Shown: positions 5,688-35,813 of the stretch, piece by piece
Layout: each line of letters opens with the position of its first letter
Position numbering within the stretch: the stretch's first letter is position 1
Assembly: GCA_003140235.1 (NCBI GenBank)
Contig: PLJN01000081.1
Coordinates: 1 to 56,080 of the forward strand
Source: Acidobacteriaceae bacterium
GTDB lineage: Bacteria; Acidobacteriota; Terriglobia; Terriglobales; Acidobacteriaceae
DNA length: 56,080 nt
Reading direction: 5' to 3'
Notes under the pieces: model-generated
Database searches by the model: none
Told to the model about the DNA's origin: nothing
The model's input: the letters and a program-made list of their open reading frames with translations, nothing else
Program-made: the position numbers and the translations under genes

Positions 5688-5822
5688 TTTCGGACACGGC
5701 TTTTCAGGAATGGACAGTGCCCGTGTCTTGACCGCACCAGCAAAGTGGGATTTCTCCTGAAGAATCAATAGTTTGCAGCCAGTCGTATTTTGGCATGACA
5801 GGTGCATTTAATCTGAGCTGAT

Positions 5823-7085: not shown

Positions 7086-7132
7086 GAACTAGCTTGCGCC
7101 GAAATTCTTAAGGAAGAACAGGAGATCATACT

Positions 7133-7855: not shown

Positions 7856-7876
7856 GCCACAGAAATTCCGATTCTT

Positions 7877-7905
7877 CTGGCCGCGTCACGGCGTGACGCG
7901 GCCAG
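7877..7905. terminator. Palindromic hairpin after ABC ATPase gene
   Basis: CTGGCCGCGTCACG (7877-7890) and CGTGACGCGGCCAG (7892-7905) pair perfectly over 14 bases with a one-base centre. There is no T-run on either side, so it may act as a Rho-independent-like stop, an RNA stabiliser or a protein-binding palindrome. Confidence 0.5.
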
Positions 7906-7945
7906 TTCGCAAATCAGGAACAAATCACAATATCGGAGGTGAAGC

Positions 7946-8328
7946 ATGCTTACGCTGCTTCAGGATCTTCGCTTTGGCCTACCGCCCTCGGACTCTATGG
8001 TGTAGTGTCTTACACGGTGGCCCAGCGCACACACGAAATCGGGGTGCGCATGACGCTTGGCGCCAGTCGTGCCACTGTTACGCAAATGGTGCTGGGGGCG
8101 GGCTTCAAGCTCACCGCGATCGGCATCGCGATAGGCGTTGTGGGCTCGCTCGTTGCTGCCCGTTTTCTTACGGCGTTCACCAGCTTACTTTTCGGCGTGA
8201 AACCGACTGACGCGCTGACCTACGTCGCGGTGGTCGCCATACTGGCTGCCGTCTCATTGCTGGCCTGCTATATCCCGGCCCGGCGCGCGGCGAAAGTCGA
8301 TTCCATGGTCGTGCTGCGCTACGAGTGA
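7946..8328 (+). pseudogene. Internally deleted MacB/FtsX-type permease remnant
   Basis: A ribosome site (GGAGGT) precedes an ATG at 7946 that reads MLTLLQDLRFGL, the usual N-terminus of acidobacterial MacB-like permeases. The frame then stops at 8005. From about 7985 the next frame encodes the last ~115 residues of such a permease: ALGLYGVVSYTVAQRTHEIG, GVRMTLGAS, two or three membrane segments, and IPARRAAKVDSMVVLRYE at the end. Roughly 650 or more residues, including the periplasmic domain and first membrane helix, are missing. The simplest reading is one out-of-frame deletion joining codon ~11 to the C-terminal third. A GTG at 7939 opens the second frame but is probably fortuitous. Confidence 0.8.
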
Positions 8329-8398
8329 TTGTCGGCACGCTCAGGCAAACTCTGAATCCCGTGCGGTATGATGGATACCCCATGGCGGAATTTGCCCG

Positions 8399-15810: not shown

Positions 15811-16560
15811 CTATTTGATATTTGCTAATTGCTTTTCCCGCCTCTGACGCGCCACCTCGTACATCACAACCGCCGCCGCAACGGACACATTCAACGACGG
15901 CACCTTGCCCAGCATGGGAATTGACACCAGAAAATCGCATTTCTTGCGGACTTGCTCGTGCAGACCGTCGCCTTCGGCGCCTAATACCAGGGCGCAATCC
16001 ATGCGGTAGTCGATCTGGTCATAGCGTTTGTCGCCGCGTTCGTCGAGTCCCACGGTCCAGATGTTGCGGGATTTCAAGTCTTCAATGGCCCGGCTAATGT
16101 TCGTCACTTTTGCAATCGGCAAGTACTCTGACGCGCCCGCCGACGCCTTGACCACGGTGGCTGTAACGCCCACCGCCCGGCGCTCGGGCAGCACAACTCC
16201 GTCCGCTCCCGCTCCTTCCGCCGTGCGGACAATGGCGCCAAGGTTGTGGGGATCTTCAATTCCATCCAGAACAATGATGAAGGCGTATTGCCCGCGCTTC
16301 TGTGCCAGCAAATCTTCGACGTCGCCATATTGCTTCTCGCCGGTCACCGCGACCACGCCCTGATGTGACGCCGTCTTGGCCAGGCGGGTCAACTGATCGC
16401 GCGGCACGGTGCGCAACGGTACACCGGCCGACCGGCAGAGGATGGCGATCTTCTGAATGCGCGCATCGCCCCGGCCGGGAGCGACGGCGACATATTCAAA
16501 ACGGCGTCCGCGAGCGGTCAAAGCTTCTTCGACTGCATGGATTCCAAAGATGATCTGCAT
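15811..16560 (-). CDS. rlmB: 23S rRNA (guanosine-2'-O)-methyltransferase RlmB
   Basis: 249 residues of the SpoU/TrmH family. The N-terminal substrate-binding part begins at MQIIFGIHAVEEAL. The knotted SAM-binding domain has DPHNLGAIVRTAEG, CALVLGAEGDGL and IPMLGKVPSLNVSVAAAVVMYE, which are the three SpoU motifs. It methylates the 2'-OH of a guanosine in 23S rRNA. The start at 16560 fits the family; the extension to 16623 does not. The last codons lie in a short A/T-rich repeat (TTTGCTA-like units), so the C-terminal KQLANIK may be repeat-derived. Confidence 0.93.
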   Translation of the reverse strand: MQIIFGIHAVEEALTARGRRFEYVAVAPGRGDARIQKIAILCRSAGVPLRTVPRDQLTRLAKTASHQGVVAVTGEKQYGDVEDLLAQKRGQYAFIIVLDGIEDPHNLGAIVRTAEGAGADGVVLPERRAVGVTATVVKASAGASEYLPIAKVTNISRAIEDLKSRNIWTVGLDERGDKRYDQIDYRMDCALVLGAEGDGLHEQVRKKCDFLVSIPMLGKVPSLNVSVAAAVVMYEVARQRREKQLANIK

Positions 16561-16725
16561 TGAGAAATAAGTATAAGCGGATTCCAGAGCTGAGGCCCGG
16601 GTGCGGTCACTCACTTTGAGCATTGTGCACGACGAACTCGTGAATCACATTAGGTACTTGCGACCGGCATTAAACGAACTTAATGTCGAGAACAACTGCT
16701 TCAAAAACCATGTTTAAGGAGAATT

Positions 16726-17496
16726 ATGAATGAATCAATCGTTGCCACTTACGACTTTCGTCTAGTGGCGCTCTCTGTGCTGATTGCCGTCTGTGCTTCG
16801 TACGTTGCGCTCGACGTGGCAGGGCGTGTCGCTGCCACACGCGACCACGCGCGCCGGGCCTGGCTAATTGGCGGCGCTATCGCCATGGGCACCGGCATCT
16901 GGTCCATGCACTACACCGGAATGCTGGCCTACCGCATGTCCATTCCCGTTTATTACCACATCCCAACCGTAATTCTGTCCCTGGTGGCCGCGGTTGTCGC
17001 TTCTTTCATCGCGCTTTTCATTGTCAGCCGCCCACAACTGAACTGGTTTCACTTCACAGCGGGAAGTCTGCTGATGGGCGCCGCGATTGCCGCGATGCAC
17101 TACACCGGAATGGACGCGATGCGGCTCTCTGCGATGCACCATTGGGACACCGGTTTGGTCATGATGTCCGTAGGAATCGCCGTGGTCGTTTCTTTGGCCG
17201 CGCTGGTCATGGCGTTCCTGTTCCGCGAAGAGAAGCTGGGGGTGGTGCCGAAGATCGCTTGTGCCCTCATCATGGGCTCGGCAATTCCGGCCATGCACTA
17301 TACAGGAATGGCCGCAGTGACCTACACGTCCATGCCCGGCGCTCCGGACCTGAGCTACTCCATCGATATTTCCGGTGTGGCCAATACTGCGATTGTCCTG
17401 GTGACGTTTGTCATTCTCGGCTGTGTCCTGCTGTTTCGCTGGAGAGACGCGGCTGCTTTGCGTAACGCCGTCGTTGTGCCGGCGCCAGTACGGTAG
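16726..17496 (+). CDS. MHYT-domain integral membrane sensor
   Basis: 256 residues with seven predicted membrane segments. Three MHYT motifs (WSMHYTGM, AAMHYTGM, PAMHYTGM) occur about 60 residues apart, each at the membrane face and able to bind a metal such as copper; this is the YkoW/CO2-O2-NO sensory module. No GGDEF, EAL or kinase output domain is fused, so it must work through a partner. It has an AAGGAG ribosome site and a strong terminator hairpin behind it, so it is probably monocistronic. The genes that follow are a receiver and two histidine kinases, which are possible partners. Confidence 0.92.
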   Translation: MNESIVATYDFRLVALSVLIAVCASYVALDVAGRVAATRDHARRAWLIGGAIAMGTGIWSMHYTGMLAYRMSIPVYYHIPTVILSLVAAVVASFIALFIVSRPQLNWFHFTAGSLLMGAAIAAMHYTGMDAMRLSAMHHWDTGLVMMSVGIAVVVSLAALVMAFLFREEKLGVVPKIACALIMGSAIPAMHYTGMAAVTYTSMPGAPDLSYSIDISGVANTAIVLVTFVILGCVLLFRWRDAAALRNAVVVPAPVR

Positions 17497-19990: not shown

Positions 19991-22005
19991 AGCTGAAGGA
20001 TCAAAAGATGGGAAACGTTCCCGCAAGGCAGTTTTCGCCGGGTGTTGGCCGCGTCAGCGACCGCAGGCGTGCCATTCTGGAGCATGCCGTGGATGCTTTT
20101 GTCGAAGTGGATTCCATTGGACTGATTCGAGGCTGGAATGCTCAGGCCGCGGCCCTTTTCGGCTGGTCATGTGCGGAAGTGCTGGGCCGAAACTTCTCGC
20201 AATGCGTCGTGGCCCCGGGCGGTCGTACGGCCTTTGATAATAGGGTGAAACGGTTCCTGAGTCCTGGAACAAAGCCAGTTCGGAACGACTGGATCAAAGC
20301 GACCGCCTTGCACCGCAACGGGCGTGAATTCTCCGTTGAATTGGCGGCTTTGGCGATACCGCAGGATGAGGTCTTTCGCCTGACGGTGTTCGTGCGCGAC
20401 GTGACCCGCGAAGAAGAAATAGAAGAAGAGGCGGAGAAACGGCACCGCGCGATCATGGACCAACTCGAGGAAGCTTACACGGAAACTGATCTCCGCGGAA
20501 CGTATGTCTACACGGGCAAGAGCTCCTACCAGTTGTTTAACCGGCTCACAGAGAACGCCGGCGGTCTAAACTATAAAGACCTGTTCGACCCGGAAACCAC
20601 CGAATTTCTTCGCGCTACTTACAAGAAGGTTTATGACACGGGACAATCCGTGAAAACGGAGCACCTGGCTCGCCGGCGTGAGGGTGGCTCCGGAAAATTT
20701 GCGGAACTGTCCACTTCCTTGCGCAGAGATGTCCGCGGCACGCCCGTTGGGTTCATTACAATCAGTCATGATTGCACCCGGCGCAAGCGCGCTGCAATTG
20801 AACTCGTCCAGGCGAAAGACGAGGCTGAAGCAGCCAATATGGGTAAGAACGAATTCCTGGCCAACATGAGCCATGAGATCAGGACTCCCCTTAATGGTGT
20901 GCTCGGTATGCTGGAGCTGGCAGGCCACACGGACCTCACCATCGAGCAGAGAGAGCTGCTCGACCTGGCGCACAGCTCAGCGGACAGCCTGCTGGAAGTG
21001 ATCCATGACATTCTGGACTTCTCGAAGATTGAAGCCGGCCAGTTGAAATTCGACCACGTGGAATTTGACCTGCGCGACACCGTGATCGAGGCCATACGCA
21101 CCATCACCATCAACGCCCACAGCAAGGGCCTGGGACTGACGTTTGCCGTTGCCCCGGACATTGCCCAATTCTTTCTCGGCGATCCGATGCGGCTGAAGCA
21201 AGTGTTGATCAATTTACTGGGGAACGCGGTCAAGTTTACGGAGACTGGCGCCGTGACTCTCCGCGTCCAGCCTGGGAAATGGATCGGCGAAAAAACGGAG
21301 CTGGTTTTCTCGGTTTCCGATACTGGCATTGGTATTCCGGCGGAAAAACAAAAACTGATCTTTGAAGCATTCTCCCAGGCCGAGGCGACGACCACGCGCA
21401 AATTCGGTGGCACCGGTCTGGGGTTGGCAATAAGCTCCCGCATCGTCCAACTCATGGGCGGACACATCTGGGTGGAGAGTGAGCACAACGTGGGTTCCAC
21501 CTTTCATTTCACCGCTGCGTTGGAAACCGCGGAAGGCGTGGACGTCAAGCCGGCAATCTCTGACGTTGCTCGTCGGCAAGAAGAAGATGCAGAAGAAGAT
21601 GAAAAGTTCAGAATACTTTTGGCAGAAGATAACGTAGTGAATCAAAGGCTGGCAGTGCGGTTGTTGGAAAGATTTGGACATCAAGTTTTCGTGGCGAACA
21701 ATGGCCGGGAAGCGCTGGTGGCTGTCGAAAAGCAGGATTTTGATCTGGTGCTGATGGACGTACAAATGCCGGAAATGGACGGTTGCACCGCTACCCTGGC
21801 CATTCGCCACCAGGAAACGCAAACCAAGGCGCACCTGCCGATCATCGCTCTGACGGCGCACGCCATGAAAGGCGATCGCGAACGCTGCCTGGAGGCCGGC
21901 ATGGACGATTACATTGCCAAGCCAGTCAATCCCCTCGAGCTCAGGCAAACCATCGCACGAGTGATGCAGTCTCGCGTCCAGAATCTGATCTCAAAACGGG
22001 CCTGA
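19987..22005 (+). CDS. Cytoplasmic PAS-PAS hybrid histidine kinase
   Basis: 672 residues with the same order as the upstream paralogue: PAS (FVEVDSIGLIRGWNAQAAAL), second PAS, HisKA (His296 in NMSHEIRTPLNGVLGM), HATPase (LINLLGNAVKFTETG, DTGIGIP, GTGLGLAI). A C-terminal receiver is added (LLAEDNVVNQ, phospho-acceptor Asp591 in LVLMDVQMPEMDG, IIALTAHAM, YIAKPV). No Hpt domain or DNA-binding output is encoded nearby. The ATGA overlap with the previous gene indicates coupled translation, so both kinases are probably made together and may heterodimerise. It ends three bases from the convergent DAHP synthase gene. Confidence 0.94.
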   Translation: MKLKDQKMGNVPARQFSPGVGRVSDRRRAILEHAVDAFVEVDSIGLIRGWNAQAAALFGWSCAEVLGRNFSQCVVAPGGRTAFDNRVKRFLSPGTKPVRNDWIKATALHRNGREFSVELAALAIPQDEVFRLTVFVRDVTREEEIEEEAEKRHRAIMDQLEEAYTETDLRGTYVYTGKSSYQLFNRLTENAGGLNYKDLFDPETTEFLRATYKKVYDTGQSVKTEHLARRREGGSGKFAELSTSLRRDVRGTPVGFITISHDCTRRKRAAIELVQAKDEAEAANMGKNEFLANMSHEIRTPLNGVLGMLELAGHTDLTIEQRELLDLAHSSADSLLEVIHDILDFSKIEAGQLKFDHVEFDLRDTVIEAIRTITINAHSKGLGLTFAVAPDIAQFFLGDPMRLKQVLINLLGNAVKFTETGAVTLRVQPGKWIGEKTELVFSVSDTGIGIPAEKQKLIFEAFSQAEATTTRKFGGTGLGLAISSRIVQLMGGHIWVESEHNVGSTFHFTAALETAEGVDVKPAISDVARRQEEDAEEDEKFRILLAEDNVVNQRLAVRLLERFGHQVFVANNGREALVAVEKQDFDLVLMDVQMPEMDGCTATLAIRHQETQTKAHLPIIALTAHAMKGDRERCLEAGMDDYIAKPVNPLELRQTIARVMQSRVQNLISKRA

Positions 22006-22008
22006 GTA

Positions 22009-23046
22009 TCAGCGCGCCACCACACTTCGCGCAGCCGGATTGAACACTGCCCGCAACGGCTTCTGAAGATCAAGCATCAGGGATTCAAAGCCGGCGAAGT
22101 CCAAAGACTGCGGTCCATCCGACAGCGCCCTCTCAGGACAAGGGTGTACTTCCACAATGATTCCATCCGCCCCAATCGCAATGGCCGCGCGCGAGGCTGC
22201 TGCGATGAGCTCGCGTTTCCCCGTACCGTGCGAAGGATCAGCAATCACCGGCAGATGAGAAAGCTCGCGAGCCAGCGCCACCGCGGCCAGGTCCAAAGTG
22301 TTGCGCATCTCGGTCTCAAAGGTCTTGATGCCACGCTCGCAGAGCACAACTTGCGTGTTACCTCCGGACAGCAGATATTCGGCAGCCAGCAGCCACTCTT
22401 TCACGGTCGCCGAAGGACCACGTTTGAGCAGCACCGGCTTGTCTACACGGGCCAAGCGCCGCAGTAAGACAAAGTTCTGCATGTTGCGCGCGCCCACCTG
22501 GAGCATGTCCGCATATTCGGAGATTACGTCCACATCTTCCGTCCCCATGACCTCAGTGACCACGGGCAGCCCAGTCTCGTCGCCGGCCTCGCGGAGAAGG
22601 GAAAGCGCTTCCACGCCAAGTCCCTGAAATTCATAAGGCGACGTCCGAGGCTTGTAAGCGCCTCCGCGAAGCATGCACGCACCGGCAGCTTTGACCGCGC
22701 GCGCGGTAGAAAAGATCTGCTCACGAGATTCCACCGAGCAAGGCCCGGCAATCACAATGGCCTCCGGCCCGCCAATGCAGACGCCGCCCACATCCACCAC
22801 GGACCGAGCACCCCGCGCCTGCCGGCTAACCAGCTTGAACGGATGCGCGATAGCCACCACGTCATCCACTCCCGGCGCGGCCTTCAAGGCTTCCAATTCC
22901 GAGCGGCGTCCACTACTGCCCACGGCGGCAATAATCGTGCGCTCCGCCCCTTGCGTGATATGGGCCTGGTACCCAAGTTCGCGTATGCGGTCCACAACGT
23001 GGGCAATCTGGAGTTGGGTGGCTTGGTCAGACATATTAACGATCAT
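22009..23046 (-). CDS. aroF: DAHP synthase, type I-beta with regulatory domain
   Basis: 345 residues. The first ~70 residues are the ferredoxin-like regulatory domain (MIVNMSDQATQLQIAHVVDR and following), known in relatives to bind Tyr or Phe. The barrel has IAGPCSVESREQ, LRGGAYKPRTSPYEFQG, QVGARNMQNF, LLKRGPSATVKEWL, CERGIKTFE and DPSHGTGKRE. It condenses phosphoenolpyruvate and erythrose-4-phosphate to DAHP, the first step of aromatic synthesis. The start at 23046 was chosen on family length; it overlaps the chorismate mutase gene by 11 bases. A Phe/Tyr-rich leader and terminator stand upstream of both genes. Confidence 0.94.
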   Translation of the reverse strand: MIVNMSDQATQLQIAHVVDRIRELGYQAHITQGAERTIIAAVGSSGRRSELEALKAAPGVDDVVAIAHPFKLVSRQARGARSVVDVGGVCIGGPEAIVIAGPCSVESREQIFSTARAVKAAGACMLRGGAYKPRTSPYEFQGLGVEALSLLREAGDETGLPVVTEVMGTEDVDVISEYADMLQVGARNMQNFVLLRRLARVDKPVLLKRGPSATVKEWLLAAEYLLSGGNTQVVLCERGIKTFETEMRNTLDLAAVALARELSHLPVIADPSHGTGKRELIAAASRAAIAIGADGIIVEVHPCPERALSDGPQSLDFAGFESLMLDLQKPLRAVFNPAARSVVAR

Positions 23047-23844: not shown

Positions 23845-25362
23845 ATGCCTGCACGAATGATTACCTATAATAAACTAGCGGCCAAGGGCACGCCGGTGTC
23901 GGCTCGAGTGTTGTCAAACGCACTCTGGCAGAAGCTCATTGAGTCGAATCGAGATGTGCCGCGGAACTTCAGCCAACTCCGCCTTCTGGGCTATAGAATA
24001 TTTAATGTCCACCCGAAGCCCTCACCCAAAGCCCCGCCCGCACCTGAGTTCGCAAAAGTAGTCCATAACTACGATCTCGATGATCCTTGTGGTACAGGAC
24101 TGCTGGATTCTTTCGTGCAGGCGCTGGCCAATCCCGCCATCACGCCCGCGCAACATAAGCAACTGGACGAAGAGCTGGCAGCGGCAGTGCCGAAGTTGCC
24201 TAACAAGATGTCCACCACCCATTTCGACCTCCATTGGACGGAAACCGATCCCGACCCAAAGAACAACATCTCGCGCGCCCTCGTGGAAGCAACATCGCGA
24301 GACCTGGAGACAGCCTGGAGCGCTTACAATGCAGCATTCGGCCGCGCTCCGTATGTTGCGAAGAATCAAACAAAAATCCAGATCCAGTTCTATCTGCTGG
24401 CGGACGGCACGTCTGGTGTGACCAGTCCCGAGGGTCCCATTGACTTTAACTCGGAGAAGTTCACCGCGAATCCCGGCCTCTGCAAGCCCATCTCGGCGCA
24501 CGAACTTTTCCACCGCGAGCAGTACAGCTTCGGACTCAGCGTGAAGTACCGTCCGCCCGACCCAAAAGCGTGGTTCATTGAAGGGACGGCGAACTGGGGA
24601 TCGGTCTTTGTCTGGCAGACCGTTGCGCAGACGCGCGCCATCGAGCCGCTGTTTACCGACCCCAACCAGTCGCTCTTTGAAGCCAGTTACAAGGCCACGC
24701 CATTTTGGATTTTTATCCAAGGCATGCAATCGGACAAATACAGCAATGCCATCGTCGAGCTCTTCAAGCAGTTTGAAGACCTGACAGGAAGCATTATGGG
24801 CGCGGTGGAAACAGTCCTGGAACTCGCCTGGAACAGCGCGCAGCCTTACTCCAGGTTCGACTTCAACTTCATGCTGTTCAATTGGGCCCGCATCAATGAC
24901 CTGTGGCGGCAGAAGCGCAACGGCTACCTCAGCCTCGGACCGCTTTACCCGGTCATCAAGACCTCAGACGGTGCGACTATCACGCCCAAGCTTACGATCA
25001 GCACGCATAATCTCTCCAAAGACCAATCATTTTCCACAGCCGCTTCCGTCGAGGAGTACGGGACCCAGTATTACCAGGTCAATCTCGGAAATAACACGAG
25101 TGGAGTGGGGCTCTATGAGGAAACCAAGACGGACGGCGTGAAGTATCTTTATACAAACAGCTGGCTGCTCAATGGCCAGGTCCAGCTTTCCGACGTGAGT
25201 GACATTTCGCGTCTTGTGCAAGGCAACCTCGGCACAATGTACAGTATCACTCTGTCCTACGCCAACCAATTTGTTTTTACCGTGTCCGCGGACCAGCTTG
25301 GACCCAACAATTATCAGATCTACTTGTCGCCGACCAATAGTCCCAAGCCGCCCTGGAGATGA
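23845..25362 (+). CDS. Putative gluzincin metalloprotease, no signal peptide
   Basis: 505 residues with a good ribosome site (GAGGAGAT). A zinc motif HELFH starts at His219 (SAHELFHREQYSFG), and Glu246 in WFIEGTANWGSV is a plausible third ligand, as in gluzincins. The N-terminal 200 residues are mixed and not recognised. From about residue 370 the sequence is beta-rich (Ig-like repeat style, ending near SPTNSPKPPWR). No signal peptide is visible, which is unexpected for this sort of protease. It is convergent with the giant gene at 25584 and separated by two hairpins. Substrate unknown. Confidence 0.75.
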   Translation: MPARMITYNKLAAKGTPVSARVLSNALWQKLIESNRDVPRNFSQLRLLGYRIFNVHPKPSPKAPPAPEFAKVVHNYDLDDPCGTGLLDSFVQALANPAITPAQHKQLDEELAAAVPKLPNKMSTTHFDLHWTETDPDPKNNISRALVEATSRDLETAWSAYNAAFGRAPYVAKNQTKIQIQFYLLADGTSGVTSPEGPIDFNSEKFTANPGLCKPISAHELFHREQYSFGLSVKYRPPDPKAWFIEGTANWGSVFVWQTVAQTRAIEPLFTDPNQSLFEASYKATPFWIFIQGMQSDKYSNAIVELFKQFEDLTGSIMGAVETVLELAWNSAQPYSRFDFNFMLFNWARINDLWRQKRNGYLSLGPLYPVIKTSDGATITPKLTISTHNLSKDQSFSTAASVEEYGTQYYQVNLGNNTSGVGLYEETKTDGVKYLYTNSWLLNGQVQLSDVSDISRLVQGNLGTMYSITLSYANQFVFTVSADQLGPNNYQIYLSPTNSPKPPWR

Positions 25363-25583: not shown

Positions 25584-28500
25584 TCAATCCATTGCGCGCA
25601 GCTTTATCTGAATTGGCCAAAAATGGCGCCCTGCGGCATTAGGAAGACCATCCGCGAGGTGTCGAACAAGACTGGTTGATTCGTGCTTCAGCGACGACCA
25701 CACGCCGAGCAGCTCGTCGACCAAGGAAGCCAGCTCTGCAAATCTTTCCATTGAGGGCTGCAAAGCGGCTGCAACATTGAATGCCGCAGAAAGAACAAGC
25801 TGTTGCTCGGCCTTGCGGATTGCCGCTGTTGATTCGGAACGGCCCAAGTGACCAGCCAGCCTAACCAGCTGGCTTCGAACATAGATTGCTACGTCCGGTC
25901 CCAAATGAGGAGTTTGCATGGCCGCCACCGTAATCGGTACCAATCCGTCATTCGGGGTCCTTTCATAGAACTGCAGGAAGTCTGTCGCAAGCACAGCCTC
26001 TCGAAATTGAGGAACCAGCTCAGGGAATGGCTCTAGATCACCTAGCACGGCGGAAATATATGCCCAAATCTCAACGTCCGAATTTCCTTTTCGGATTTGC
26101 TCGATAGCTTGCTCTAGCATCAGTCGTGCGCCAGTCGGGGAGAAACCCTCGCGGATAGAATCTGGCAGGAAAACCAACCAAGAAGGGGCGAAGCACAGCA
26201 GTGAACCAAGAACATTAGGTGCGCGAGTCCTGTCCCGAACCAATCGTGCGAGAATCGCGTGGTTATTTCCGATGAACTCCGAGATCATTTCCCGGAAAGG
26301 GTCTTTCGGATTGCTTAACTCGCCTATCGCATAGACAGCACTTGCAAGGCCAAAAACCGACGCATCGACACGCCTTGGATAGGCCACATCGGAGGTATAT
26401 TCCGAATCCGCAAAGACGACTTCTGCGGGCAATCGCGCCCCCACGGTTCCAATATGTTCGCCAATCCAATCTGCGGGCACACCAATGTTGCGCAATAAAC
26501 GAAATAGGCGGTCGCTGTGATACCACAGAACGACGAAACGCTCAACAGCTCCTAGTTTCCTGAATGCCTCTACGAACATTAGGTCCTCGGAGCATCGTTG
26601 GACCACGGAAATCCAGGTTTCGACATAGGCGGTCGATGTCAAGTTACGCAGGGCTAATCGGCGGGCAAGTCTTGGATAGCTGGGACGGTCTTTTCTGAAT
26701 TCCAGCAAGATTCTTGCACAATGCGCAATCCCTAGGGGAGACTTGGACAGCGAATTAAGCAGCCTTTTAATTATCTCGGTTCGATTATCCGCCGAGAGTT
26801 TGCCAAGAGTGTCGACGATGCATGCCGGAAGGTGAATGGGCAAGGCTGCCAGCCTAACTGTTGCTGCTTCTACACCTAGCTCATCAATTAGCTGTTCGCC
26901 CGCCCGCCCAATTGCAGTCCCGCAGTCCACGACAGAACCGGTGTCTAGGCGCCAGCGCAAGTGGCGGAGAATTGAGGTGACGTCCGGTGGCATTAGCTCG
27001 GTGGGGCGCACCGGATGCTGCTGCTGAATCGATGTCCGCAGATCCGCGTAAAAGGATTCGGCACTACATCGTCTGACACGAATGAGCTCCGTCATTCGTT
27101 GTGCTGGATCATCGATGATAGCAATCTTGGCAATTGTGGCGTAGCACTCTGTTGAACTGCAGTCGAACCAGTCGCGAACTGTGTGCAACGCTCTCTCACG
27201 CTCAGGGGCAGAGCCGGCAAGCACATCAACTGCGTCTGGAAGTACTATGTACGCGCAATTTGCTTTTCGGTCGTAGGCGATTAGTCGTCGGTACTCCTTG
27301 TCAGTCTCTATTTGCAGCTCAAGTTCTGAATTGTCATCTGCCTTAAGCGTCGCCTTTCCGTCTGTAGAGACCAGACTTGCAGCAGTCGTCCAAAGTTCCT
27401 CAGCTGAGAACGTATGCCCCCCCAACGTTAGAATCTCCCTCTGAGACGCGCCAATCTTCCCCAGAAAATGTCCATCGCGAGCGATCTCTTGATTCAGTTC
27501 ATAAGGCAAGTCGGCGAAGAATGCTCCCGCCACTGCACACGCGGCCCTTCTATGTACCAACGAGTCAGAGGTTGAATCGACAGACATTTCTAATAGCCGC
27601 TTTAAGCTGTCGAGTGTCAGCAATGCCAAGTGCGGATCGGCACCGAATCGGGGTTGAATGAGTCGGACATATATCCACTCTAAATACGCTCGTCGCGTAC
27701 GCCTCTCGTCCGCATCGGTCGGTGAAAAGACGGTAGCGCGAGCGAGAAGCGCGGAAAGCGCATTCGCTTCCATTTGTAAGTCGAGATCCGCTCTACGTTG
27801 TGCCACAGTAAACGAGCGGCCGCGATCTGGCGCGTACAAATTCGACAATACCCATTCTGATCTCACGCGGGCCGAATTGAAATCGCCCTTCGATTCCTGC
27901 CAGATCTCAGCAATCGCGTTAATGGCCGCTTGCCCTGAACTAAGGATAAAAGGCCACTCTAAACTGCCATTCCCAGTGCGCTCCGGAGTCGAAACGACAC
28001 TTAATATCTGGCCGTCCACTAGACATCTGGCGTAATATCTACGCAACGTGCGCAGCAATCGCGTGTCGACCAAGCGCCCGTCCTCAATTGTTGCCTCATT
28101 GACCGCTGCCTTTATTTCATCCTCATTCAATGCGATGAAACGAAAATCGCTCTCACGAGCAACTCGAAGAACTTCAAACAATTCTTTCGGCGTAATGCTC
28201 CCTAGCTTGTGCAGTGCTCCCATCAGATCAATCGTGTCAAGGACCAAAGCGCCATCTCGATGAACATATCCGTTGAACCAGCGATCGTCTGCCCAAATGA
28301 CGTCGCCAGGCATTGGCGTAAATTTCATCAAGTCTAAGAAGCAGTTCAGCGTCGGGTCCATGGCGGCACCGTCTGCCAGTGCCGCGTGCTCGTGGTTCAA
28401 AACAGGCATCAAGCGATATGTCCCATTCTCAATGCCGCTACTCACATGGCCGATGAGTTCTGTCAGCCATTTGGCATCGGCGTCTCCAAGAGTATGGGAA

Positions 28501-31500
28501 TCAATCATTGCGGTAACGGATTGGCTGAATTCATGCGCGTCAACCATCAGCTGAAATGCTTGGGCAGCACGATGTAAGACTTTCGCGCTAGCCAATAACT
28601 CTAAGATATACGACCGGCACACAATCGTTTCGTGCATATCAATATGTTGAATCGTTGGAGTCGCAGGCCGCGATCCCATCGCTTCTATTGCTCGTTGGTA
28701 CTCCCGCTCGGAAATCTCTCCAAAACGGCGAAGCGACTCAACAATGCAGTAGCCATCTCGGAGAATCGCCTCGTACTGCGAAGGAAATGACTGCATGATT
28801 GGAAGCCCACTTTTGTCAACTAATGGCAGCGACAAAGCACACTTCCAGCCTTTGCTTACCGCAAGATTCATGAGGCGTCTTGTATGAGTCTCAGGCTCAA
28901 CATCCAGGACTTCAAAATCAACATTGCTGGCAGAATCTATTGTTGAGTCTATGGTTGTTATCTGGCCCTGGCGTACTAGGGCTGCGATAGTCTCAAGGGC
29001 GTGGGCTCGTAAGGGCTGAAGCGGTTTCACGGCATCGCGCATCGCGGCAAGCGCAATCAATGTTGGATGCGGCAGGGCAATCGGCTTGAACGCAAGTTCT
29101 ATGGTTGAAAGGATTCCCAAGGATGTGGCGGTGAGTAGCGCCGTAAGGTCGGCATGAAGGCGCGGTTGAGTCTGTCCGTCTAGTTGTATTCTTGGGCCTC
29201 CGCGCGAACCATGGCGGCTCAGGGCAGAAGCGGCCCCTATGTCGGCAGTAATATTTCTAACCGGCGACCGATGATACGGCACAACAAGTGGCCATCCGGC
29301 TGGTTTGGTGATCATATGTACGGGGACTTGTCCCTCTCGGTATAAACGATAGAGGCGGGTGGTGGCATCCATTTGGTCTCTAAGCAGCTCGACCGTTTCC
29401 TGCAATGTAACCAATCGCACGTGACTCTCCGAGCTGGCCGCCAGGCTGGAAAGACGCTCAAGGAGTGGGCGCAAGTCAACATCCAGTCGAAGCTTATATC
29501 CCACATCAAGGGCAGTTGTGATATCGGTATCATCAAATCCTGCCAGGGCGGCGCGTCGCCAGAGTTCGGTGCCCAAGTTTTGGTCTTCGTCAAGAACACG
29601 CATAGACATTAGCAGCAAATCTCTTGTGGCGAGGTTCGCATACGCAATGTGTCTTCGGTACAAAAGGGCAAGCGCCTTGAAATCGCCTTTTTCAAAATAT
29701 AAATCTCCGAGTATCCAATAGTTTCTCTCGGATGGTTCGCGCTGAAAAAGTTCCTCTGCGCGCAGAGTAGCTTCGGGCACAATCCCCAGCGCCCGCTGCG
29801 CAGCAATGCGCACGCGTTGCATCTCGTTGGGAAGTTCGGCGCGTGGATAGTGCGACCGATGATTTTCTAACAATTCCAAGCAGCGTGGATATTGACCAGC
29901 GTTGTATAAGCAAACGCTGGCGAGACAAACAGCTTCGGCTGTGCAGACCCGGTCGACCAAGGAGGTTGCTAGCTCCGCAACCTCAGCCCATTTTCCCTGT
30001 CCCGCCAGAACACGACATAGTTCCAGAAGTCTGACGCCATCACTGGACGCTCGTCTCCTTAAGGCTTCAATGAGAGCCGCGCAGTTGCCAGTCCTTGCTG
30101 CGTTAGCGTGAAGCGCGACAAGCTCAATATCGCTGCCCTCCAATGCCGTCTCTCTCTCGGACTCGGGCAGCGATGTAAGGCCGCCGGTCAACACTGAGAA
30201 CTGTGCACGCCATAGGCCCCACAATGGAAGGGCGTTCGCCTTAGCGAAGACCGCTTGATTTCGCTCTAGCAGCTCCATTGCTGTGGCTCCGTCTGCATTC
30301 TGTGCGTGCCAAATCCCCAAAGCGATGATCTCAGGAATATCGGCCTCACTCTGTGAGACTCTGTTCTTAAGCATCTTGATCGCCTCCTCGATCCGGACCT
30401 GTAGCCTTCGCGCCAGCGCCCACAGCACAAGGACGTAGTGGTGAGGATCGGAAGCGAGCGCCTCACTGCAGAACGCTTCTGCTTCGTGTCTGCGCTCGGG
30501 ATCGTTCGCCAAACAAGCGAGGTGCCAAACTTCATAGAGCCGCCCTTCGTCTTCTCGTATTTCGTTTCCGCGCCCCAACTCCGCAAATCCTTCAGCCGCA
30601 GAATGAAGCGAGTTTCGACTATCGTCGTCAACCTTAACGAGGGCCCAGTCAACTGGTTCCGGCCACTGAGGAAGACCTGAGGGCAAAGCGCAGGGTGAGA
30701 TGCTAACGAAGTACAGAATCACTGAGCGTGCGTATTGGACGGAGCGCCACCGAGGCTTCAGTACGACCGCCTTCTCGATTTCAAGACGCGCCCTTGGAAT
30801 GTCACGCTGAAGAAGAAAGGCAAGGGCAAGTAATCTGTGGGTTTCAGCAGAGTCTGGCAGGCTTTCTAGTATCGCGATGGAATCAGTCACTTGGTGGCTC
30901 TCCAATAGGAGAGCGGCAAGGAGGGTCTGGGAGTCGATGTCCTTTTCTGCTCTGAGGAGAGCCACCGCGGTATGAAGGCGGCCCAGTGCTCTGTGTACTA
31001 GAGCACTGGTGCGCCTGTTCTCCTCGGGGTCGAGATCCCCCGCCTCAGAGACCAGCGTCTCGGCCGATTCAAGATTGCCACTCTCCAAATCTAACTGAGC
31101 TTGGAAGCGCAGGGCCTTGGCGCGAACTGACGCAGGAAGTATCCGCCACCGCGATGGTTCCCGTAATTTGCCGATTGCGGCTCGGATCTCTGAAGGGCGA
31201 CCCTCGCGCCAACTCTCCCGGAGTTTTTCGAGCTCATCGTTTGCATCGTCCGACAGATGTCCTGCTAATTTCTCAGAGAGCTCTGCATACGCCGCGATGT
31301 CAATGCACGAGCCACCGCCCGTGGGAAGATTGCTTATTCCCTCGCCGCACAATTCCTTCTCCCAATAAGGCGGAAAATGACTCCGAACGGTCTCTGGGGA
31401 AGTTCTTAACTTACCCGTTAAGGTCAGATTCGACCAAGGCTCGTACTCGATCCCGAGATTCTGAAATCTTCTCTTCTGCTCGGTGATCTCTTCCTGAACT

Positions 31501-31871
31501 TGGCGATTAGAGAGGCTGCAGCCGACGTAGAGGATAAACTTGCGGACCTCAAGAGCTTTCCAATAGTCGAGATGCTGGAGAAACTCGTCTGAAGCATTCT
31601 TTATCAAGGACGGCTTGCATCGTGTTTCGCTTATGCGTTTACACTGTCCTACTTCGATACCATCCCCTGAACGGAGGTAAGCAACAATGTCAACGCCTTT
31701 CTGCGATTGCCCATTAATTCCAAATACATCCGCTGTTGAAACATGTGTCTCCTTCTGATGGAGTTCGCAGCAGAGCTGCTGGAACATGAGCGGGTCCAAC
31801 TTATGGAAGTCCGGGAGCTGGCCCCGGACCGTCGGCGGCGGAAGAGTGTCGCGCGCGTTCGAACCTTGCAT
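25584..31871 (-). CDS. Giant Mrr-like nuclease / TPR / PIN-like protein
   Basis: 2095 residues from the ATG at 31871; upstream in-frame codons hold no other start. Residues about 20-165 look like a PD-(D/E)xK nuclease of the Mrr branch: Glu36 (FQQLCCELHQKE), Asp61 (QKGVDIVAYL) and Gln76-x-Lys78 (EVGQCKR). Residues about 200-850 are TPR-like helical pairs. From about 840 a YRxGxxPxH segment leads into a PIN-like half (Asp908 in LHADLTALLTATSLGIL). After about 240 residues the second half follows (WADDRWFNGYV, Asp1195-1196; LDTIDLMGAL). Residues about 1260-2095 are helical and unrecognised. The architecture recalls TPR-GreAB-C-PIN conflict proteins, though no GreAB-C domain is seen. Composition looks lower in GC than neighbours, suggesting transfer. 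Role in defence is inferred. Confidence 0.8.
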   Translation of the reverse strand: MQGSNARDTLPPPTVRGQLPDFHKLDPLMFQQLCCELHQKETHVSTADVFGINGQSQKGVDIVAYLRSGDGIEVGQCKRISETRCKPSLIKNASDEFLQHLDYWKALEVRKFILYVGCSLSNRQVQEEITEQKRRFQNLGIEYEPWSNLTLTGKLRTSPETVRSHFPPYWEKELCGEGISNLPTGGGSCIDIAAYAELSEKLAGHLSDDANDELEKLRESWREGRPSEIRAAIGKLREPSRWRILPASVRAKALRFQAQLDLESGNLESAETLVSEAGDLDPEENRRTSALVHRALGRLHTAVALLRAEKDIDSQTLLAALLLESHQVTDSIAILESLPDSAETHRLLALAFLLQRDIPRARLEIEKAVVLKPRWRSVQYARSVILYFVSISPCALPSGLPQWPEPVDWALVKVDDDSRNSLHSAAEGFAELGRGNEIREDEGRLYEVWHLACLANDPERRHEAEAFCSEALASDPHHYVLVLWALARRLQVRIEEAIKMLKNRVSQSEADIPEIIALGIWHAQNADGATAMELLERNQAVFAKANALPLWGLWRAQFSVLTGGLTSLPESERETALEGSDIELVALHANAARTGNCAALIEALRRRASSDGVRLLELCRVLAGQGKWAEVAELATSLVDRVCTAEAVCLASVCLYNAGQYPRCLELLENHRSHYPRAELPNEMQRVRIAAQRALGIVPEATLRAEELFQREPSERNYWILGDLYFEKGDFKALALLYRRHIAYANLATRDLLLMSMRVLDEDQNLGTELWRRAALAGFDDTDITTALDVGYKLRLDVDLRPLLERLSSLAASSESHVRLVTLQETVELLRDQMDATTRLYRLYREGQVPVHMITKPAGWPLVVPYHRSPVRNITADIGAASALSRHGSRGGPRIQLDGQTQPRLHADLTALLTATSLGILSTIELAFKPIALPHPTLIALAAMRDAVKPLQPLRAHALETIAALVRQGQITTIDSTIDSASNVDFEVLDVEPETHTRRLMNLAVSKGWKCALSLPLVDKSGLPIMQSFPSQYEAILRDGYCIVESLRRFGEISEREYQRAIEAMGSRPATPTIQHIDMHETIVCRSYILELLASAKVLHRAAQAFQLMVDAHEFSQSVTAMIDSHTLGDADAKWLTELIGHVSSGIENGTYRLMPVLNHEHAALADGAAMDPTLNCFLDLMKFTPMPGDVIWADDRWFNGYVHRDGALVLDTIDLMGALHKLGSITPKELFEVLRVARESDFRFIALNEDEIKAAVNEATIEDGRLVDTRLLRTLRRYYARCLVDGQILSVVSTPERTGNGSLEWPFILSSGQAAINAIAEIWQESKGDFNSARVRSEWVLSNLYAPDRGRSFTVAQRRADLDLQMEANALSALLARATVFSPTDADERRTRRAYLEWIYVRLIQPRFGADPHLALLTLDSLKRLLEMSVDSTSDSLVHRRAACAVAGAFFADLPYELNQEIARDGHFLGKIGASQREILTLGGHTFSAEELWTTAASLVSTDGKATLKADDNSELELQIETDKEYRRLIAYDRKANCAYIVLPDAVDVLAGSAPERERALHTVRDWFDCSSTECYATIAKIAIIDDPAQRMTELIRVRRCSAESFYADLRTSIQQQHPVRPTELMPPDVTSILRHLRWRLDTGSVVDCGTAIGRAGEQLIDELGVEAATVRLAALPIHLPACIVDTLGKLSADNRTEIIKRLLNSLSKSPLGIAHCARILLEFRKDRPSYPRLARRLALRNLTSTAYVETWISVVQRCSEDLMFVEAFRKLGAVERFVVLWYHSDRLFRLLRNIGVPADWIGEHIGTVGARLPAEVVFADSEYTSDVAYPRRVDASVFGLASAVYAIGELSNPKDPFREMISEFIGNNHAILARLVRDRTRAPNVLGSLLCFAPSWLVFLPDSIREGFSPTGARLMLEQAIEQIRKGNSDVEIWAYISAVLGDLEPFPELVPQFREAVLATDFLQFYERTPNDGLVPITVAAMQTPHLGPDVAIYVRSQLVRLAGHLGRSESTAAIRKAEQQLVLSAAFNVAAALQPSMERFAELASLVDELLGVWSSLKHESTSLVRHLADGLPNAAGRHFWPIQIKLRAMD

Positions 31872-32214: not shown

Positions 32215-32254
32215 GAGTGGGGTCGAGTGGGGTCGAGTGGGGTTGAATGGGGTC
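32215..32254 (+). repeat. 10-bp G-rich tandem repeat, G-quadruplex motif
   Basis: GAGTGGGGTC repeats four times (last two with one change each). This puts four GGGG tracts at 32219, 32229, 32239 and 32249 with six-base loops, a textbook G-quadruplex pattern on the plus strand. Two more G-runs follow at 32260-32272. Confidence 0.8.
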
Positions 32255-32388: not shown

Positions 32389-33219
32389 CTAATCTCCTGC
32401 GCTTTTTCGGCCGCGTGGCTCTGTTCCGGTCGCAGCTTCTGAGGCGACGGGCTTTTTGGCTTCCTTCAGGCTCATCTTCAGGGCTTCCATGATGTCGATG
32501 ACCTGGGCTTTATGCTGCGGCGCGGCGGTTTCGACAACCTCTTTGCCCGCGACTTTGGTTTCGACCATCTTCAGCAGGTTTTCGCGGTAGTTGTCTTTGT
32601 ATTTGTCGGGATCGAAAGCGGCTTGCAGGGAAGCGATGAGCATGCGCGCCAGATCAAGTTCTTTGTCTTTGACCAGCGTCAGGTCGGTGCGGAACTCGTC
32701 AACCTGGCGGATTTCGTGGCGATAGTACATGGTGTGCAGCATGAGTCCTTGCGGGCCGGGGCGCAGGATCACGATGTGTTCTCGGTTGTGCATGGCGATT
32801 TTGGCCACGCCGACGCAGCCGGTTTCCTTCAGGGCGGCGAACAGCAGGGCGTAGGGCTTTTCGCCGGCGTCGTCGGGGGCCATGTAGTAGGAGCTTTCGA
32901 AGAAGATCGGGTCGACTTCGTCCGATTTTACGAACTCCTGGATTTCCATGGTCTTGGCGGTCTTGGGCGCGACTTTCTTGATGTCTTCGTCGTCGATGAC
33001 TACGTATTTGTCTTTTTCGTATTCGTAGCCCTTGACGATCTCGGCGCGGGTGATGGGTTTATCCTCGGCCTGGCAGAACAGGACCTGTTTGACGCGTGAA
33101 TTGTCGGTCTTGTGCAGTTGGTTGAAGCTGATCGATTCACTGCGGGCGGCGCTGTACAATTTTACGGGAAGTGACAGCAGACCAAAGGTCAGGTGTCCTT
33201 TCCATACGGTGCTGGCCAT
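32389..33219 (-). CDS. ku: Ku DNA end-binding protein
   Basis: 276 residues. The bacterial Ku core is complete: MASTVWKGHLTFGLLSLPVKLY at the N-terminus (first 20 residues diagnostic), KGYEYEKDKYVVIDDEDI, and the bridge region HTMYYRHEIRQVDEF. A Lys/Arg-rich C-terminus of about 30 residues fits the tail that engages DNA or LigD. It forms a homodimeric ring on double-strand ends and recruits LigD for non-homologous end joining. It is divergent from ligD with a 107-base gap, so both may share regulation. The downstream neighbour on the same strand is the giant nuclease-like gene. Confidence 0.96.
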   Translation of the reverse strand: MASTVWKGHLTFGLLSLPVKLYSAARSESISFNQLHKTDNSRVKQVLFCQAEDKPITRAEIVKGYEYEKDKYVVIDDEDIKKVAPKTAKTMEIQEFVKSDEVDPIFFESSYYMAPDDAGEKPYALLFAALKETGCVGVAKIAMHNREHIVILRPGPQGLMLHTMYYRHEIRQVDEFRTDLTLVKDKELDLARMLIASLQAAFDPDKYKDNYRENLLKMVETKVAGKEVVETAAPQHKAQVIDIMEALKMSLKEAKKPVASEAATGTEPRGRKSAGD

Positions 33220-33326
33220 GAGGTTTCTCCGAGTCGAGTCTTTTATGTCTGCTGCCAGGGCTCAAAACGCGACGAGACTACCTGTTTAGCACAAAAAACA
33301 GTGCATTACAATGCTGTTGGTACCCT

Positions 33327-35813
33327 ATGTCACTAGAAGAATACCGGCGAAAACGAGTTTTCTCGCGTACTCCTGAGCCCCCGGCCAAGGTGGAGGCCGG
33401 CGCGGGTAACCAGTTTTTTATTCAACGACATAGCGCAACACGTCTCCACTATGACTTGAGATTGGAAATGGACGGAGTTTTGAAGTCGTGGGCGCTGCCG
33501 AACGGCCCCACCCTGGATCCGGCAATCAAGCGGCTGGCGGTGCTGGTGGAAGACCATCCGATGGACTACGGCAGCTTTGAAGGAACGATTCCCAGCGGAA
33601 ATTACGGCGCCGGTAACGTGATTCTTTGGGACCGTGGGTCGTATGAGTGGCTGGGAACGAAGCCTCCGGCGCAGCAGTGGGAGGCTGGTGATCTGAAGTT
33701 CCGGCTGCATGGACAGAAACTGATGGGCGAGTTTGCTCTGGTCCGGACGGCGCGCGGCAAGGGCAAAGACTGGTTGCTCATTAAGAAGAAGGACTTTGCT
33801 GTACGCGAAGGTTGGGACCCGGAGAGTGATATACGCAGCGTGCTGCGGGCGTCGGCCGATCCGTCGTCGATTGAAGGTGCGGTGAAAGCTGCCATGCCAG
33901 CATCGCTGGAGCCGATGCTGGCTATGCCGGTTGGTAGATTGCCTTCGGGAACGGGCTGGCTTTATGAAGTCAAGTGGGATGGGTACCGTGCGCTGTGTTT
34001 TATCACGGAAGGAAAGATAAGAATGATGTCGCGCCGCGGCAATGCGATGGAGAAGCAGTTTTCGGAAGTTGCCGACGCATTGCTGGTATGCGTGAACGCC
34101 GACACTGCAATTCTCGACGGCGAGGTTGTGGCCAAGGACGATAACGGTGTTCCCAGTTTTCAGTTTTTGCAGCAGCGCACGGGATTTTCGAAATCGGTCA
34201 AAAGTGAGACGGCGCACCCGTTGAGCTTTTTTGCTTTCGATCTGCTGTATCTGAATGGCTACGATCTGCGCAACGCTGCGTTGATTGACCGTCGTCAACT
34301 CTTGGCTTCGATCCTATTGCCCAGCGAGACGGTGCGCTATTCAGAACATTTTGCGGGGAAAGGCGAAGAGCTATTGCAAGCAGTCCGGGCTAAAGGGATG
34401 GAAGGCATTTTGGCCAAGCAAGCGCAGAGCAAATATGAATCGCGGCGGACCGGCGAGTGGCTCAAGATCAAGATTGCTGCGCAGCAGGACTTTGTCATCT
34501 GCGGATTCATTCTGGGTGAGCGCGAGCCGTTTGGATCGCTGGTGCTTGCGTACTATCAGGACGAAAAGCTGGTCTACGCCGGGAACGTTGGATCGGGATT
34601 TACACAGGCGTCACTGAAATCCGTTTTCGAAAAGATACAGCCATTGATTACATCCGAACCCGTGCTGACCGATGTCCCCAAAGATGTTGGCGCTGTTATC
34701 TGGGTCAAGCCGGAACTGGTCTGTGTGGTGAAGTTCAATTCCTGGACCGGCGAACTTCGGCTACGTGCGCCGGTGTTTCAAGGATTGCGAGAAGACGCGA
34801 CGCCGCTCGACGTGGTGCGAGAAGTTAGCTCGCAGCCGGATGAGTTACCACCACCGTCCGTGGCGAAGAGGGAAGCGTTTCTTCCGGAAGGACAAACGGA
34901 AGTTACGCTCACGGTGGATCGCTGTCCGCTTAAATTTACGAACTTGAAGAAAGTCTTCTATCCCGCGGACGGCTACACCAAGAGCGACGTGATCAACTTT
35001 TATGCCGCAGTGGCTGACCTGTTGGTGCCGCACTTGCAAGCACGGCCGCTTTCGTTGAAGCGCTATCCCGACGGAATCGAGAAGGAGTTTTTCTTTCAAA
35101 AGGCCGCAGCCGCGAGTTTTCCAGACTGGCTGCACATGGAAGAGATCGCGACGAGTGAAGATTCGGCCACGCGATTTGTGATTTGCGATGACCAGGCGTC
35201 GCTTTTGTACCTGGCGAATCTGGGCTGCATTGATCAAAATCCCTGGATGAGCCGGCTGGGCTCGCTGGAGAATCCGGATTTCATTTTGATTGATCTTGAT
35301 CCTTATCACTGCGGCTATGACCGCATTGTTGAAACAGCACAGCTCATTCGTCACAAGCTGGATTTGATCGGATTGAAAGGATATCCCAAGACCACCGGCG
35401 GCAACGGCATGCACATTTACGTTCCTGTCCAACCGCGCTACACGTACAGCCAGACGCGGTCATTTGCGGAAATTCTGGCGCGGTGGGCGGTGGCGGAGCG
35501 TCCGGAGCTTTTCACGATGCCGCGAACCGTCGCGTCGCGCGAGAAAGGCAAAGTGTACTTTGACTGGATGCAGAACGCAGAAGGCAAGACAATTTCCGCG
35601 CCGTATGTATTGCGCGCGTATCCCGGCGCGCCGGTGGCTACGCCGCTAACGTGGGACGAAGTGCGGCCCGGGCTTACTCCATCGCAATTTCACATCGGCA
35701 ACGTGCTGCGCCGGTATGAACGCGTGGGAGATTTATTTGCCGGAGTGTTGAACCAGCCGCAGGAAATCGAGCCCGCGCTGGAGAAAATGGAGCAGCTCAT
35801 CATGGGGACTTAA
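33327..35813 (+). CDS. ligD: LigD multifunctional DNA ligase
   Basis: 828 residues in the order phosphoesterase-ligase-polymerase. The N-terminal 3'-phosphoesterase (about 1-180) has RHSATRLHYDLRLE and VEDHPMDYGSFEG with the catalytic His/Asp. The ATP-dependent ligase (about 195-490) has the adenylated Lys216 in EVKWDGYRAL, plus GEVVAKD and KIKIAAQQDFVI. The primase-polymerase (about 530-828) includes FYPADGYTKSDVINFY and DLDPYH with metal-binding Asp. It processes, fills and seals ends held by Ku. It faces Ku across a short divergent region. Confidence 0.97.
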   Translation: MSLEEYRRKRVFSRTPEPPAKVEAGAGNQFFIQRHSATRLHYDLRLEMDGVLKSWALPNGPTLDPAIKRLAVLVEDHPMDYGSFEGTIPSGNYGAGNVILWDRGSYEWLGTKPPAQQWEAGDLKFRLHGQKLMGEFALVRTARGKGKDWLLIKKKDFAVREGWDPESDIRSVLRASADPSSIEGAVKAAMPASLEPMLAMPVGRLPSGTGWLYEVKWDGYRALCFITEGKIRMMSRRGNAMEKQFSEVADALLVCVNADTAILDGEVVAKDDNGVPSFQFLQQRTGFSKSVKSETAHPLSFFAFDLLYLNGYDLRNAALIDRRQLLASILLPSETVRYSEHFAGKGEELLQAVRAKGMEGILAKQAQSKYESRRTGEWLKIKIAAQQDFVICGFILGEREPFGSLVLAYYQDEKLVYAGNVGSGFTQASLKSVFEKIQPLITSEPVLTDVPKDVGAVIWVKPELVCVVKFNSWTGELRLRAPVFQGLREDATPLDVVREVSSQPDELPPPSVAKREAFLPEGQTEVTLTVDRCPLKFTNLKKVFYPADGYTKSDVINFYAAVADLLVPHLQARPLSLKRYPDGIEKEFFFQKAAAASFPDWLHMEEIATSEDSATRFVICDDQASLLYLANLGCIDQNPWMSRLGSLENPDFILIDLDPYHCGYDRIVETAQLIRHKLDLIGLKGYPKTTGGNGMHIYVPVQPRYTYSQTRSFAEILARWAVAERPELFTMPRTVASREKGKVYFDWMQNAEGKTISAPYVLRAYPGAPVATPLTWDEVRPGLTPSQFHIGNVLRRYERVGDLFAGVLNQPQEIEPALEKMEQLIMGT

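Follow-up and report, generated by a model that had tools for sequence, protein, structure and literature searches.

A 2095-residue protein of an Acidobacteriaceae bacterium as a candidate variable-effector conflict protein with two PIN-like modules

We analysed a stretch of 56,080 nucleotides from an Acidobacteriaceae bacterium (GenBank assembly GCA_003140235.1, contig PLJN01000081.1), hereafter the window, and focus on one gene that encodes a protein of 2095 residues. On sequence, structural models and analogy we consider it probable, with some reserve, that this is a one-protein, variable-effector conflict protein, probably directed against phages, in which a conserved core would act as sensor and regulator and the N-terminal domain as executioner. 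We class the protein as a double-PIN form of the conflict proteins known as TPR-GreAB-C-PIN (TPR, tetratricopeptide repeat), set apart from canonical members by its domain order. The computational analysis shows this order, an exchange of effectors over a constant core, a C-terminal part that is a separate gene in some genomes and a sparse, partly plasmid-borne distribution. The open reading frame (ORF) has no internal stop codon, and a chance ORF is excluded because homologues span its length.

Exchange of the N-terminal Effector

Seven types of N-terminal head are found over one core, namely an Mrr-like nuclease as in the window protein, a caspase, a trypsin, an HNH nuclease, a DUF4297/LmuA-like domain, a nucleoside phosphorylase and an alpha/beta hydrolase. 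Pfam recognises the caspase at locus L014 (PF00656, 1.6e-10), the trypsin-like protease of L030 (PF13365, 3.8e-8), the nucleoside phosphorylase (PNP) of L035 (PF01048, 2.5e-13) and the alpha/beta hydrolase of L033 (DUF676, 2.6e-6). The HNH heads of L032 (HNH_2, 4.6e-4, 20.4 bits at a cut-off of 21) and L034 fall slightly under the Pfam cut-off. With their HNH heads, L031 and L032 match the PADLOC models "Effector, Endonuclease" (1.2e-16 and 2.4e-22) and SAVED-HNH (2.9e-15 and 2.4e-21), both of which we take to be effectors of cyclic oligonucleotide-based antiphage signalling systems (CBASS), as well as PDC-M68A (1.6e-23 and 1.5e-31); the head of L024 matches LmuA (5.2e-9) and DUF4297 (3.1e-5) there. 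Neither Pfam nor PADLOC assigned a domain to the head of L015, and all other complete N-termini that were read are of enzyme type.

A tree of 21 sequences over the residues corresponding to 200–1290 places the window protein beside another Acidobacteriaceae copy (support 96/99). The caspase copy lies within a fully supported clade (100/100) of six cyanobacterial copies, and its five companions there have the Mrr-like nuclease; by sequence, this reads as a clear case of effector exchange. Parsimony on the tree, with the window and the G genomes assumed to be Acidobacteriota, requires seven effector changes and five phylum changes, the minimum for eight and six states, and because these counts are the fewest possible they prove neither exchange nor transfer.

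The surroundings of two of these copies deserve mention. The caspase version (L014, Leptolyngbya) is located downstream of genes annotated as multiubiquitin, a ThiF adenylyltransferase and a DUF6527 protein (5654–8020), with one hypothetical gene in between. The trypsin-headed copy of L030 is followed by two further genes that look by eye like trypsin-like proteases (15987–17201 and 20851–22149).

Domain Architecture

The features of the window protein are listed in Table 1. The structure of residues 1–900 was modelled with AlphaFold2 at a mean predicted local distance difference test score (pLDDT) of 83.4. In this model, the head is composed of a helix (27–39), three strands (44–49, 62–66, 72–78), a helix (87–98), a strand (109–116), a helix (123–138) and a strand (142–146), which is the order of the PD-(D/E)xK type. 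Among 13 aligned copies, selected for having an Mrr-like head and excluding the broken copy L016, D61 and K78 are kept throughout, Q76 is found in nine and position 36 is acidic in 12. Judged by its modelled fold order and its catalytic aspartate and lysine, the head is an Mrr-like PD-(D/E)xK nuclease. The Pfam model Mrr_cat stays below its cut-off of 21 (13.1 bits for the window protein, 20.2 for the best relative). A PDB profile search with the nuclease alignment gave Card1 as its best match, a weak one (E 0.036), and a PDB sequence search with the whole protein gave none. The head of L083, a PF20698 protein, is related to that of the window protein (hhalign probability 95%, E 1.7e-8, obtained without a shuffle control), and the window nuclease also matches inside plasmid genes annotated as NACHT domain-containing protein (H16, H17, H19, H20).

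Table 1. Features of the 2095-residue protein and their positions in the window
Feature	Residues	Window position	Strand	Basis
Whole gene	1–2095	25584..31871	(-)	ORF with ATG start; stop codon 25584–25586
Mrr-like PD-(D/E)xK nuclease, exchangeable N-terminal effector	1–175	31347..31871	(-)	Fold order in model, alignment, hhalign
TPR superhelix	192–812	29436..31298	(-)	Model helices; Pfam TPR-type matches; Foldseek
Helix-turn-helix (HTH) upstream of double PIN (PF24407)	823–876	29244..29405	(-)	28.7 bits, cut-off 27
First PIN-like module, with D908	904–1065	28677..29162	(-)	Strand/helix order in model; D908 conservation
Second PIN-like module (D1190, D1195-D1196-R1197, E1252)	1082–1290	28002..28628	(-)	Related to PF20698 PIN-TPR-GreABC
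Beta/alpha module, at the position of the PF24388 (Permuted GreAB-C) matches of relatives	1478–1545	27237..27440	(-)	Model; columns of the L028 match
Helical C-terminal region	1548–2095	25587..27230	(-)	Model

The head is followed by a TPR superhelix, for which the best 50 of 1455 Foldseek matches are headed by Ctr9, Ski3 and APC/C chains, and by the HTH domain, whose Pfam model, at E<=1, is present in 13 of the 17 members of the family. A second AlphaFold2 model, of residues 896–2095 (13 alignment rows, mean pLDDT 81.4, predicted template modelling score (pTM) 0.69), contains two successive modules of alternating strands and helices. R1197 and E1252 do not vary among the 23 copies aligned; D908 and D1196 are each found in 22 of them and D1190 in 20. 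PF20698 is present in nine of the 17 family members at E<=1 and exceeds its cut-off in L014, L032, L033 and L034 (28.4–43.7 bits), in each case at the second module.

As a comparison set for the core we used three PF20698 proteins of 1142–1285 residues from genomes of the window's phylum (L082–L084). The second PIN-like module scores 28.0 against them (best of 40 column shuffles, 18.3) and the HTH domain 21.8 (best of 40, 14.4), so both look like distant kin of their counterparts in the canonical proteins. The first module scores 13.4, below the best of its 40 shuffles (19.6), in a comparison that is weak because two of the three rows are cut without the first strand. Its assignment as PIN-like rests on fold order in the model, D908 and the Pfam name of PF24407.

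Beyond the PIN-like modules, the model shows a helical stretch, a strand-strand-helix-four-strand module (1480–1544) and then helices over a long stretch. At L032, L033 and L034, from three genomes of the phylum, the core stops some way past the second PIN and is followed by an overlapping second gene of 645–675 residues. From about residue 1430, the window family can be aligned with a three-row profile of these second genes under two settings (probability 97%, E 1.7e-10; probability 94%, E 1.1e-7; both without a shuffle control). At L030, two overlapping frames join at about residue 1290. PF24388 matches L028 with 39.3 bits, in columns that correspond to window residues of about 1478–1530, as well as the second of the two L033 genes (28.0 bits, cut-off 27) and L011 (14.7 bits), and is found in four of 17 family members at E<=1. 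Hence, sequence matches in relatives and the model suggest that a GreAB-C-type module is probably present after the PINs of the window protein. Two Chloroflexota copies are interrupted (L030 at 13435, L029 at 3074–3198), which might reflect gene fission or a broken frame.

Several of these features had been proposed in the initial annotation of the window, made from the letters and ORF translations. The reality of the ORF, the Mrr-like head with its acidic position 36, D61, Q76 and K78, and the long TPR region are all borne out. D908 and D1195-D1196 had been attributed to one PIN-like domain split by about 240 residues; the aspartates D908 and D1196 are indeed conserved, and the single PIN around an insert was dropped, as two successive modules suit the model better. 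The 800 or so residues that could then not be placed are now placed in part, by their resemblance to the separate downstream gene. Kinship with TPR-GreAB-C-PIN, which had been proposed as well, gains support from the PF20698 matches of the family and from the two regions that exceed all 40 shuffles, at low hhalign probabilities (second PIN 13%, HTH 11%). The statement that a GreAB-C domain is lacking is probably wrong in view of the match in L028 at the same columns, though the window copy itself is unmatched.

Distribution of the Family

Relatives are sparse. In a tblastn search of plasmids, 23 of 72,556 records match, and in five the match spans at least 80% of the protein at 25–28% identity (Allocoleopsis, Nostoc, Gloeocapsopsis and two from Leptolyngbya). 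A scan of genome contigs with an alignment as query, limited to two short patterns, gave 11 loci with relatives, some of them partial, in Acidobacteriota, Cyanobacteriota, Nitrospirota, Chloroflexota and Bacillota; nothing was confirmed in the contig scan when a single sequence served as query. Alphaproteobacterial copies of 2039–2048 residues are located on rhizobial and Martelella plasmids. The proteins form a sparse family with members in six named phyla.

Within the window's own phylum, a profile of the core (17 rows) detects the family in six of 396 genomes, the own genome included. Among the own genome and 60 related ones, the gene is found in the own genome only, and two further matches are short TPR stretches. 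PF24407 matches seven of the 396 genomes. Its match in G138 (L010) was taken as false, since the frame reads as ankyrin repeats and has no core-profile match. PF20698 matches 12 genomes (11 over the cut-off), four of which hold the two-gene form and none of which is the own genome, and PF24388 matches three, one over the cut-off.

Six of the ten plasmid records examined are typed as conjugative, and four copies (L011, L013, L016, L019) are located near partition or replication genes. No near-identical DNA was found on plasmids. Other copies are chromosomal, namely L021 on a contig of 4.7 Mb and those of G154 and G241 each on one contig (4.5 and 4.6 Mb). In the loci read by eye, the gene stands alone with few conserved neighbours; no recurrent partner gene was seen beside the copies outside rhizobial plasmids, and ScpB or RHE_PE00001 genes recur near some of the rhizobial ones.

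Two loci show individual features. On plasmid pRlX4 of Rhizobium beringeri, the copy is split into several frames and represents a decayed member (L016 9908–16180). Directly upstream of the copy at L021, three tandem genes on the opposite strand (6754–9874) resemble tyrosine recombinases by eye; this copy may lie within an integrated element.

Relation to Known Systems

TPR-GreAB-C-PIN has been predicted to be a conflict system in which the N-terminal effector varies while the body, made of TPR, GreA/B-C and PIN, stays constant (Kaur, Iyer, Burroughs and Aravind, 2021; PMC8195603). The effectors named there include restriction endonuclease (REase), HNH, PNPase, TIR, SIR2 and trypsin; the body is described as fast-evolving and the gene as mostly standalone. 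The system is proposed to act on virus-hijacked RNA polymerase by transcript cleavage, with the effector as lethal back-up (PMC8195603). The window protein shares with this system the exchangeable N-terminal effector, the TPR region and the mostly standalone gene, and, at the level of the family, the PF20698-type PIN; a related Mrr-like head is found in L083. The order differs. In TPR-GreAB-C-PIN, the TPR region is followed by GreA/B-C and a C-terminal PIN (PMC8195603), whereas the window protein has TPR, HTH, PIN, PIN, the probable GreAB-C-type module and a long helical C-terminus. It is also about 800 residues longer, and in some genomes its last portion has a gene of its own. In the three proteins that we took as canonical, 1142–1285 amino acids in length, the PIN is located 164–199 residues from the end; only in L083 among them does GreA_GreB match ahead of the PIN, with 12.5 bits and thus under its cut-off of 26.9. 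Because of the different order, the second PIN-like module and the long C-terminus, we do not class the window protein as a canonical member.

Three Pfam entries, PF24407 (HTH_upst_double_PIN), PF24388 (Permuted_GreAB-C) and PF20698 (PIN-TPR-GreABC), match family members in the same place and order; only PF24407 matches the window protein over its cut-off. Although these entries provide domain names only, they show that both the permuted GreAB-C and the HTH that goes with the double PIN have already come to the notice of Pfam's curators. None of the papers listed in searches of a limited library names this double-PIN system.

The N-terminus of the window protein also gives a weak PADLOC match to Avs2 (E 0.0031). 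Unlike Avs2 and NACHT proteins, the window protein has no nucleoside triphosphatase (NTPase) domain matched by Pfam. DS-3 of DefensePredictor, a defence system made of one protein, has a PIN that is split along the chain; it needs its catalytic residues and is suggested to be auto-inhibited (PMC13092281). Its likeness to the window protein is one of description.

Proposed Mechanism and Alternative Explanations

In the mechanism that we propose, the conserved body, from the TPR superhelix through the HTH, the two PIN-like modules and the GreAB-C-type module to the helical C-terminus, would serve as sensor and regulator, and the exchangeable N-terminal domain, a putative Mrr-like DNase in the window protein, as executioner. 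The GreAB-C-type module and the solenoids might dock on RNA polymerase or on an RNA-protein complex. During infection, the HTH/PIN pair would engage an abnormal complex or its RNA and might also cut the RNA; a resulting change in the TPR superhelix would then release or cluster the nuclease. The nuclease would cut phage DNA, host DNA or both, and the infection would be stopped, possibly via cell death. RNA polymerase docking, transcript cleavage and an effector acting as lethal back-up are taken, by analogy, from the published prediction for the sister system (PMC8195603). Auto-inhibition, activation triggered by infection and DNA as the target are what we infer.

Several results weigh against a conflict protein of this kind. 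Neither the whole window protein nor L028 is matched by PADLOC, and no relative was found among phage records (0 of 50,697) or confirmed among candidate viral contigs (0 of 24). Recognised defence genes are absent from the ten neighbouring ORFs in a Pfam scan, so that the defence-island association raised in the initial annotation was not seen. As for the assignment of the domains, PF24388 gives no match in the window copy, and the family segment 1440–1570 does not align (probability 0.2) with L082–L084, where a canonical GreAB-C is expected. PF20698 does not match the window copy directly, either in the Pfam scan or in the PF20698 scan of the 396 phylum genomes. The hhalign probabilities of the second PIN and the HTH against L082–L084 are low, and PDB profile searches with both PIN alignments returned no PIN. 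Of the 545 matches that Foldseek gave for the core, the best 50 have the titles of large helical proteins and superpose very poorly, which speaks neither for nor against PIN folds. Finally, the window protein has T1127 in a column with glutamate in 19 of 23 copies, and its second PIN does not have the first-strand aspartate found in L032–L034. PIN catalysis is doubtful, since a threonine replaces the common glutamate and this aspartate is missing.

The same two positions, together with the enzyme-type domain on every complete N-terminus read except that of L015, fit the possibility that the PIN pair senses nucleic acid but has no RNase activity and that all chemistry is left to the exchangeable domain. 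We regard such a division of labour as possible, if clearly not probable. The near-invariance of D908, D1196, R1197 and E1252 goes beyond what the structure seems to need and argues against it, as do the split-PIN catalytic residues needed by DS-3 (PMC13092281), a system that may be unrelated. If instead the Mrr-like nuclease with its intact D61 and K78 were the essence of the protein, the latter might act like a type IV restriction enzyme, cutting modified foreign DNA with the long body recognising the modification. However, the same core carries proteases, a phosphorylase or a hydrolase elsewhere, and Pfam matches no modification-reader domain. Because the nuclease is swapped for these enzymes over the same core, DNA cutting is not the constant function; a type IV-like activity is quite unlikely, and the plain type IV restriction enzyme was dropped, as effector exchange speaks against it.

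The conjugative plasmids and the nearby partition or replication genes would suit an addiction-like gene for the maintenance of, or competition between, mobile elements, with no role against phages. We consider this unlikely, given the chromosomal copies of L021, G154 and G241 and the lack of a recurrent partner gene by eye outside rhizobial plasmids. Very unlikely, in our view, is a cellular stress or RNA quality-control protein built of TPR, PIN and Gre-like parts and not devoted to conflict. Such a role might be read from the resemblance of the TPR body to the Ctr9 and Ski3 scaffolds (among the best 50 of 1455 Foldseek matches) and from the adjoining DNA-repair genes Ku and LigD. Yet the resemblance is generic for TPRs, the Ku-LigD pair is kept without the 2095-residue gene in the five same-genus regions fetched, and the gene was found neither in the 60 relatives nor in 390 of the 396 phylum genomes.

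The conflict protein with a core sensor and an N-terminal executioner, which we favour, can be extended to a transcription-coupled, NTPase-less immune receptor. The double PIN and the Gre-type module, placed on RNA polymerase, would read the extruded 3' end of the RNA, and the TPR region would relay the signal to a plugged-in killer. One PIN might sense and the other cut, or D908 and D1195/D1196 might form one composite active site. We put this forward tentatively and think it improbable as it stands, the more so since no alignment of the GreAB-C-type segment with the canonical proteins was obtained. If the conflict-protein reading that we favour is right, transcription would be guarded by a modular single-gene alarm with a constant sensor and a cartridge-like weapon, and without a matched NTPase domain of the sort used by Avs and NACHT proteins. 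The sister system TPR-GreAB-C-PIN is described as a prediction from sequence (PMC8195603). A ready set for asking whether the core alone sets sensing is offered by the copies in which one core carries a nuclease, a caspase or a trypsin.

Composition and Genomic Surroundings

The composition of the gene was compared with 31 other long ORFs hand-picked in the window. Its G+C content is 0.537 against a mean of 0.569 (standard deviation 0.023), and only two short ORFs of the 31 are lower (0.511 and 0.521). Its G+C content at third codon positions (0.546) is the lowest of the 32 ORFs, the remainder of which average 0.668 (standard deviation 0.039). The codon-use distance of the gene is 0.318, compared with a maximum of 0.136 among 200 equally long stretches of the comparison ORFs. 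The lower G+C content noted in the initial annotation is thereby confirmed, and the composition and the sparse, often plasmid-borne distribution are consistent with the transfer proposed there. Its description as a single gene holds for the window, where one ORF is found, and not for L032, L033 and L034. No convincing direct repeats were found flanking the gene, and an empty site could not be defined, as the flanks are too little syntenic in the same-genus genomes.

The Pfam scan of the ten neighbouring ORFs, three of which gave no match, identified among others Ku, LigD, DAHP synthase, histidine kinases and a sigma factor. The genes next upstream are those for Ku and LigD (non-homologous end joining), which are divergently arranged at 32389–35813. 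In the gap between the 2095-residue gene and Ku, a ten-base tandem motif, GAGTGGGGTC, occurs in about four units (32215–32254). On the other side, the gene adjoins an ORF of 505 amino acids at 23845–25362 (+), which has no Pfam match and was not matched in any of the eight other genomes of the genus that were searched; its HELFH stretch, read by eye, resembles a metallopeptidase motif.

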